In this document: piece by piece, positions 5,723 through 5,972 of the stretch | Position numbering within the stretch: position 1 is the stretch's first letter | Layout: the number at the start of each line of letters is the position of its first letter | Assembly: GCA_023389545.1 (NCBI GenBank) | Contig: JAEWEI010000033.1 | Location: 1 to 8,842 of the forward strand | Length of the DNA: 8,842 bases | Reading direction: 5' to 3' | From: Actinomycetes bacterium | Lineage (GTDB): Bacteria > Actinomycetota > Actinomycetes > Actinomycetales > Cellulomonadaceae | Program-made: the position numbers and the translations under genes | Notes under the pieces: generated by a model | What the model was told of the DNA's origin: nothing | Database searches by the model: none | Seen by the model: the letters and a program-made list of their open reading frames with translations, nothing else

Positions 5723-5888
5723 GTCAGTCCTTGGGGTGGGCCGGCTCGGCGGTGTGGGCGCGCGCGAGCCGCGGGTGAACGGATGCGGGGCGCCGAGAGG
5801 GTGTCAGCGGCCGTGCCGACGGCGGGCGTCGGGCGAGCGGCTCAGCGCCGCGTGGACGCCCGAACGGGCGATGCGGCGGACCTCTCGG
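5723..5888 (-). promoter_or_regulatory. Structured leader RNA, candidate attenuator of the transporter operon
   Basis: This is the non-coding stretch between the leader ORF stop and the 56-aa gene, read on the minus strand. A 9-bp perfect inverted repeat (GCCGAGAGG, 5889-5881) begins at the last base of the leader stop codon and pairs with 5800-5792. Nested inside is an 8-bp repeat (CGGGCGTC, 5862-5855, with GACGCCCG, 5830-5823), itself enclosing a 5-bp stem with loop GCTGA (5851-5847 / 5841-5837). The first arm of the 8-bp repeat can instead pair with the segment just before it (CGCCC GTTC GGGCG, 5870-5857), so two structures compete. No T-rich terminator tail is visible. In a GC-rich genome some such repeats occur by chance, so function is inference. 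Confidence 0.5.
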
Positions 5889-5972
5889 CTACCGACAGCG
5901 ACAGGCGGACGCGCGGGGCGCGGCGGGCACGAGTCCCCGCGCGCAGGCCGTCAGCGTCGTCATGTGCGTCAT
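5889..5972 (-). CDS. Candidate cysteine-containing leader peptide (27 codons)
   Basis: A short ORF from ATG 5972 (or ATG 5963, preceded by AGGA at 8-nt spacing, giving 24 aa) to TAG at 5891-5889. It has Cys at residues 10, 24 and 26 and ends SACRCR-stop. The last two Cys codons are TGT, whereas 7 of 8 Cys codons in the confident genes of this window are TGC. It lies about 167 nt upstream of an operon for a sulfur-type transporter and is followed immediately by an inverted repeat. This arrangement resembles the actinobacterial cysteine leader peptides and polycysteine uORFs reported upstream of sulfur genes in mycobacteria. It lacks the usual 'HVDLCRV'-type core I remember for some of them. 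An ORF of this length may be accidental, hence moderate confidence. Confidence 0.45.
   Translation of the reverse strand: MTHMTTLTACARGLVPAAPRASACRCR

Follow-up and report, generated by a model that had tools for sequence, protein, structure and literature searches.

Does the intergenic region ahead of a yeiH-type transporter gene in this member of the Cellulomonadaceae encode a leader that responds to cysteine? An earlier inspection of the letters alone (the sequence-only reading) raised this question for the window, the whole stretch of 8,842 nucleotides analyzed here, by proposing a possible cysteine attenuator of the classical type on the minus strand. The genes downstream form a two-gene unit. 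The first (5552..5722, minus strand; AAGGA Shine-Dalgarno at 5732-5728) encodes a likely membrane protein of 56 aa (EDW...GLVLLTLVLTG...LVP), for which no Pfam or NCBIfam match was found, and shares a one-base overlap (TGATG) with the gene for a 388-aa yeiH-type transporter (4386..5552, minus strand), whose predicted substrate is a sulfur compound. The transporter scored 165.6 bits against PF03601, above the cut-off of 24.5, and 82.6 bits against TIGR00698 (YeiH family putative sulfate export transporter), under the cut-off of 232.6. The candidate leader, also on the minus strand, is flanked by this unit and, on its upstream side, by a divergent macrodomain gene.

A transporter scan of species genomes returned 291 encoding stretches, the best 80 of which were kept as L001-L080 (loci are numbered L, genomes G). 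A related small gene (~56 aa, [DE]W[AL]A...GL.L..LVL.G...P..LVP, recognized by motif) precedes 71 of the 80 yeiH homologs, and the small membrane protein is a possible partner subunit of YeiH. At L001 (~2930-3100, the same place as L134) the start of the small gene runs in frame into yeiH (MTHLSHDPDPAPDADTTPPPGVAWT...), an arrangement that a deletion joining the two genes would produce. The seven genomes of the L001 genus also have a second YeiH homolog, which shares 29-35% identity with that of the window and gave fragmentary matches in G003 and G008; beside it, a LysR-type-looking gene was recognized by eye in L139 and L141-L143 (among L138-L145). No Cys-x-Cys-Arg-stop leader was detected at this more canonical homolog in the seven loci scanned (L138-L144), where the L140 contig begins just upstream of the gene and some loci hold other Cys-ended frames.

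Leader ORF and predicted stop-anchored helix

The minus-strand ORF at 5972-5889 reads MTHMTTLTACARGLVPAAPRASACRCR-TAG in the window and ends in Ala-Cys-Arg-Cys-Arg-TAG, with TGT codons third and fifth back from the stop when the stop is counted. A perfect 9-bp inverted repeat (5889-5881 with 5800-5792, 80 nt between the arms) begins at the last base of the TAG. The sequence-only reading had described the minus-strand ORF, the TGT positions, and the origin of the repeat, and all were confirmed in the sequence. Relatives were gathered with a pattern that fixed Cys-x-Cys-Arg-TAG and most of the first repeat arm, permitted TGC, and left the second arm out. The six aligned sequences comprise group A (the window, G001, G002, and G005) and group B (G003 and G008), two being the number of independent sequence groups behind the conservation described here. 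The 27-codon frame of the earlier proposal is present, but the ATG named there is not conserved: it occurs in group A only and is missing in G003 and G008, whereas the second, in-frame ATG (5963) aligns with a GTG in both and marks the conserved start. The leader ORF so defined (5889..5963, minus strand; MTTLTACARGLVPAAPRASACRCR-stop) has 24 codons, is of equal length with no indels in 6/6 sequences, and starts with ATG in group A and GTG in group B.

Between the two groups the peptide is rewritten except for Ala-Cys-x-Cys-Arg-stop, as is apparent when that of G003 (VTSRPTAPRSAPRAAGFARACTCR, with the initial GTG written V) is set beside its window counterpart. Mean identity between groups A and B in the six-sequence alignment was 0.51 over codons 1-18 and 0.76 from codon 19 to the stop, 0.89 in each helix arm, 0.44 between the arms, 0.49 in the untranslated tail, and 0.80 in an upstream box block; 25 of the 97 columns between the arms are gapped, and the leader ORF has no indel in the same sequences. 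Features kept across both groups are Ala-Cys-x-Cys-Arg-stop, the stop-anchored helix, a T-N11-A box, and a -10-like hexamer. Conservation of the stop and Cys codons among relatives, on which the earlier proposal had been staked, therefore holds.

The two conserved Cys codons (TGT-CGC-TGT in the window, 5895..5903, minus strand) do not form a run but are spaced by a variable codon, CGC or ACC. Both are TGT in every sequence (12/12), though the pattern permitted TGC. The usual Cys codon is TGC, which outnumbers TGT by 32 to 1 in five sir genes of relatives and by 3 to 0 in seven window genes; the TGC dominance reported earlier was thus right in direction, while its figure of 7 of 8 was not reproduced exactly.

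Arm 1 of the helix (GCCGAGAGG; 5881..5889, minus strand) begins in the stop codon and forms 9/9 pairs in 6/6 sequences with arm 2 (CCTCTCGGC; 5792..5800, minus strand), which was assigned from pairing and alignment and is followed by an invariant GCC. The spacing of the arms ranges from 80 to 91 nt. One pair is A-U in four sequences and G-C in two, a single two-sided exchange. Among 500 column shuffles, 33 matched the covariation score and 327 the two-sided pair count, so that covariation support for the helix is modest: covariation in the repeats, which the earlier proposal called for, is present in the 9-bp helix and amounts to one pair. The longest perfect helix near the stop was equalled in 17, 2, 4, 1, 16, and 5 of 500 shuffles for the window, G001, G002, G005, G003, and G008, respectively. 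Folding z-scores were ordinary (-0.10 for the window and -1.33 for L008). Rfam 15 covariance models gave no match at gathering scores in the window and none at E<=1 over 5500-6150.

Distribution and flanking elements

Among the best 80 of 291 loci, an upstream Cys-x-Cys-Arg-stop frame followed by TAGCCG[A/G]GAGG was found in L001, L002, and L008, all from Cellulomonas. A pattern search of the genus of the L001 genome recovered the leader in 5/7 genomes, and an independent protein search placed a close yeiH ortholog in the same 5/7; G006 gave a one-mismatch match in which the TAG reads TCG. At family level, a yeiH ortholog at E<=1e-80 was present in 16/221 genomes, and of these 16 loci the five from the genus carry both the leader and the T-N11-A box and the remaining 11 carry neither. 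Two of the 11 hold other Cys-ended frames: that of L178 lies 73 nt upstream of the match and lacks a start codon, and that of L187 lies 417 nt upstream. The leader pattern occurred in 7/221 family genomes; the matches L101 and L102 were set aside because inspection of the 120 nt that follow showed no arm 1 complement. Searched with a covariance model of the element, the family gave five strong matches (E 1.9e-8 or better) among 10/221 genomes matched at E<=1. The weak matches L151-L155 were rejected because no frame within the sequence examined ended in Cys-x-Cys-(Arg)-stop, the check covering these five and not L156. In an even draw from the order, the pattern was found in 1/396 genomes, namely G001 itself. 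Within the range searched, the ORF with its 9-bp inverted repeat is real, conserved, and lineage-specific.

A general habit of placing Cys leaders ahead of yeiH was not supported by these loci. Cys-ended frames preceded 6/77 loci, one of the six being L008 (the leader itself), as compared to 3 on the reverse strand and a shuffle mean of 4.5 (maximum 9); the count leaves out L001, L002, and L025, where no small gene was recognized and two of which carry the leader. Three Nocardia loci have a common 'GCCYRAASR' frame, the two-Cys form being confined to those 3 of the 23 listed Nocardia loci. This frame was judged by inspection not to be a leader, since some other Nocardia loci keep it with one Cys.

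Upstream of the leader, a T-N11-A box (TCC-N7-GGA; 6007..6019, minus strand) is centered ~50 nt before the leader start, and 14 of the 21 columns in the surrounding block (6026-6006) are invariant in six sequences. The box, which we take to be of the type bound by LysR-type regulators, is a likely activator site by prediction. A loose pattern for the box matched 8/8 genomes at least dozens of times each and was uninformative as to a common regulon. A -10-like hexamer, CAGGAT (5971..5976, minus strand), has the form CA[GC]GAT in 6/6 sequences (CACGAT in G003 and G008) and ends 7 nt before the leader start codon in all six, which suggests a leaderless transcript; the standard sigma-70 consensus pair was not found at the locus. 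Upstream neighbors differ, with a macrodomain gene in the window and a cutinase gene in G008, while leader and box stay, indicating that leader and box go with yeiH.

On the other side, the untranslated tail from arm 2 to the first gene (5723..5791, minus strand) is rich in C over G (C/G 1.8-2.4 in 6/6 sequences), with a C-G skew that ranks at least at the 99.4th percentile among 78-nt windows taken from both strands of the 80 yeiH loci, and is a candidate Rho-loading region. No terminator-like site was found in window positions 5400-6150, and the longest T run in the tail is at most 2 in 6/6 copies; attenuation by an intrinsic terminator was dropped on these grounds. As the tail is C-rich, G-poor, and without a U run, Rho termination is more plausible than an intrinsic terminator.

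The sequence-only reading had also described an 8-bp repeat, enclosed by the helix and able to swap partners with an upstream hairpin arm. This repeat (5862-5855 with 5830-5823) is present in the window but missing from 5/5 relatives, and was discarded as a conserved element. Compared with a trp-type attenuator, the conserved ORF and its Cys codons would supply the leader ORF with regulatory codons. No conserved mutually exclusive pairing was found, the 8-bp repeat being unconserved and the other competitor for arm 1 occurring in group B only. With no terminator-like site, tail T runs of at most 2, and the 8-bp pairing unconserved, the classical attenuation geometry proposed at the outset is not supported.

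Predicted folds and competing readings

In model folds with a stalled ribosome (footprint 13 nt from the A-site), helix probability fell to <=0.01 in 6/6 sequences with the ribosome at the second TGT or the stop. With the ribosome at the first TGT, the helix formed with probability 0.73-0.98 in group A and 0.00-0.03 in group B. With this footprint, the claim that a ribosome stalled on the Cys codons covers arm 1 holds for the second TGT, and a ribosome at the stop covers it too, but at the first TGT arm 1 is left free. In free RNA, helix probability was 0.26-0.97 in group A and 0.02-0.19 in group B, and was thus already low in G002 (0.26), G003 (0.02), and G008 (0.19). The helix is weak in the model folds of group B because the 5' end of the leader pairs with arm 1 in competition with arm 2. 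The first leader codons of group B (CCTCCCGGC; leader at L008:2385-2459 and L100:1509-1583) form a perfect second partner for arm 1, and initiation on the leader itself could there switch the pairing of arm 1.

From sequence comparison and these models, we assign a probability of about 0.6 to the reading that, in one lineage of Cellulomonas, the ORF encodes a leader peptide that senses cysteine and controls the small-membrane-gene/yeiH unit. The possible leader that had been suggested ahead of the YeiH unit is to this extent upheld, as a conserved ORF with a Cys-x-Cys-Arg-stop end and a stop-anchored helix lies directly upstream of the small-membrane-gene/yeiH pair. Transcription would start at or next to the leader start codon, as predicted from the -10-like hexamer, probably with the help of an activator at the T-N11-A box. 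How long the ribosome stays at the two TGT codons and at the stop would determine whether arm 1 is free to pair with arm 2 during transcription of the C-rich tail, and this would in turn settle the choice between read-through into the operon and premature termination, the latter likely by Rho. Low cysteine would be expected to yield more transporter, a polarity proposed by analogy with actinobacterial cysteine leaders. Given the lack of a terminator and of consistent ribosome-binding-site occlusion, the read-out is a guess; it is perhaps Rho-dependent.

A different read-out would follow if the small gene had its ribosome-binding site occluded by the leader RNA and freed by ribosome stalling, as in mycobacterial cysteine leaders. 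This is consistent with the folds of G001, G002, and G005, in which a ribosome stalled on the Cys codons left the site more open (0.29-0.43 to 0.60-0.67). No opening was seen in the window (0.75 to 0.75), G003, or G008, and sequestration of the Shine-Dalgarno sequence, relieved in 3/6 folds only, was rejected as a consistent read-out. Likewise, the minimum-energy fold of the window has arm 1 base-paired to the beginning of the small gene, but by inspection the complement is intact in G001 and broken in G002 and G005, and this pairing was dropped as well. Occlusion of the ribosome-binding site is thus an unlikely account, if one to be taken seriously.

Slightly less probable again is a leader that is not specific to cysteine but monitors overall translation, or release at its own stop codon; a ribosome waiting there would mask arm 1, and any slowing would alter expression. 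Arm 1 begins in the stop codon, helix probability with a ribosome there is 0.00 in 6/6 model folds (already low in free RNA of G002, G003, and G008), and the Cys codons are few and not contiguous, all as such a sensor would have it. A general sensor is harder to reconcile with the retention of Cys-x-Cys-Arg-stop between groups in which most other residues are rewritten and the middle codon is free, or with the Cys-rich leader frames on the sulfate-assimilation operon of the same genomes.

It is improbable that a regulator binds the two 9-bp repeats as inverted sites in the DNA, with the ORF present only incidentally. The arms are perfect, short, and 80-91 nt apart, and the nearby T-N11-A box does suggest a control region; against this, arm 1 overlaps the stop of an ORF of conserved length, the arms changed together at one pair, and conservation of the ORF end extends beyond the arm. 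A chance ORF beside a chance repeat in a GC-rich intergenic region is hardly credible and is contradicted by conservation, for while a Cys-ended ORF is by itself no great rarity (164 cases when minus-strand 6096-5724 was dinucleotide-shuffled 20,000 times, counting a start codon 15-40 codons back and at least two Cys in the last five codons), none of the 20,000 gave such an ORF together with a perfect 9-bp repeat beginning within 6 nt of the first base of the stop, and both occur in 5/5 genus genomes with the ortholog.

Known cysteine leaders and sulfur metabolism

The cysteine-sensing leader peptide favored here may not be the only one in these genomes. Cys-rich frames lie just ahead of sir-cysH-cysD in 7/7 genus genomes (L171-L177) and show at least three end types: CCCPRIA (G003, G008), RCCPRVD (G006), CCCQRVD (G007), CCLGVCPRSA (G001), CCLGACPRSA (G002), and CCPGACPRSA (G005). 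A script flagged four of these seven frames and the other three were recognized by eye, all as frames without assigned starts. Like the yeiH leader, they occur in the same genomes and have Cys codons near the stop, but their ends are run-like. A helix near the stop of the sir frames was equalled in 70, 77, 488, 18, 49, 31, and 330 of 500 shuffles (G001, G002, G003, G005, G006, G007, and G008, respectively); on these counts a stop-anchored helix does not emerge as a general feature of the sir frames. As judged from the frames, the genus genomes seem to place cysteine leader frames before their sulfate-assimilation genes, and five of the seven also seem to have one of another build before yeiH. 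Sulfite is the intermediate that CysH makes and Sir uses.

Polycysteine leaderless short ORFs of mycobacteria were reportedly described by Canestrari et al. in 2020. Such polycysteine-encoding leaderless short ORFs are discussed in PMC9094748, PMC9031893, and PMC13236596. Like them, the yeiH leader is short, contains Cys codons, and precedes a gene in a sulfur-related setting; a leaderless start is predicted for it from the -10-like hexamer. It differs in that their Cys codons are contiguous, whereas the yeiH leader has Cys-x-Cys only in 6/6 sequences, and in having a long-range stop-anchored helix and a YeiH-type transporter as its target. For lack of contiguous Cys codons it is not classed with the mycobacterial type, though it may work like one. 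According to the accessible portion of PMC1262725, candidate cysteine leader peptides precede cys operons in Mycobacterium and Propionibacterium acnes and cbs in Bifidobacterium longum, with runs of Cys codons and no terminators, and Rho was suggested. These share with the yeiH leader, as far as that portion goes, Cys codons near the stop, the absence of a conserved terminator, and a proposed Rho-dependent read-out. They differ, by the same text, in their Cys runs, and the mycobacterial ones in having no conserved terminator-like hairpin, while the yeiH leader has no run, a conserved helix, and a different target. Cysteine leaders in actinobacteria were thus already known, and what is new here is the design with spaced Cys codons and a stop-anchored helix on a YeiH unit. 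No cysteine leader ahead of a YeiH/PSE gene was found among the open-access papers searched, as judged by titles and the starts of abstracts.

In Salmonella, YeiH is needed for sulfite resistance and the LysR-type regulator YeiE responds to sulfite, as stated in the available part of PMC12880088. The likeness to the present locus lies in the YeiH protein and in LysR-type control, which in the window is predicted from the box; that part of the source mentions no leader peptide for Salmonella. A more specific and tentative proposal, which we would rate as possible at best, is that a YeiH-type exporter has come under cysteine control in one Cellulomonas lineage through a newly designed leader peptide with spaced TGT codons and a stop that opens a long-range helix, so that waiting at codons and release are read together. 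On this view, a shortage of cysteine would induce the exporter together with the sulfate-assimilation genes, and it would act as a safety valve that relieves the cell of the toxic intermediate sulfite. In view of sulfite resistance through YeiH in Salmonella and of the sulfite intermediate of CysH and Sir, co-induction with assimilation would make sense.

If the leader reading is correct, these genomes, which appear to have a cysteine leader on the sir operon, would have a second one of different build, and the pair would offer a natural comparison of how ribosome position could be converted into gene expression without an intrinsic terminator. It would also tie YeiH, a determinant of sulfite resistance in Salmonella, to cysteine supply, which would be a concrete clue to the actinobacterial role of a poorly understood transporter family.
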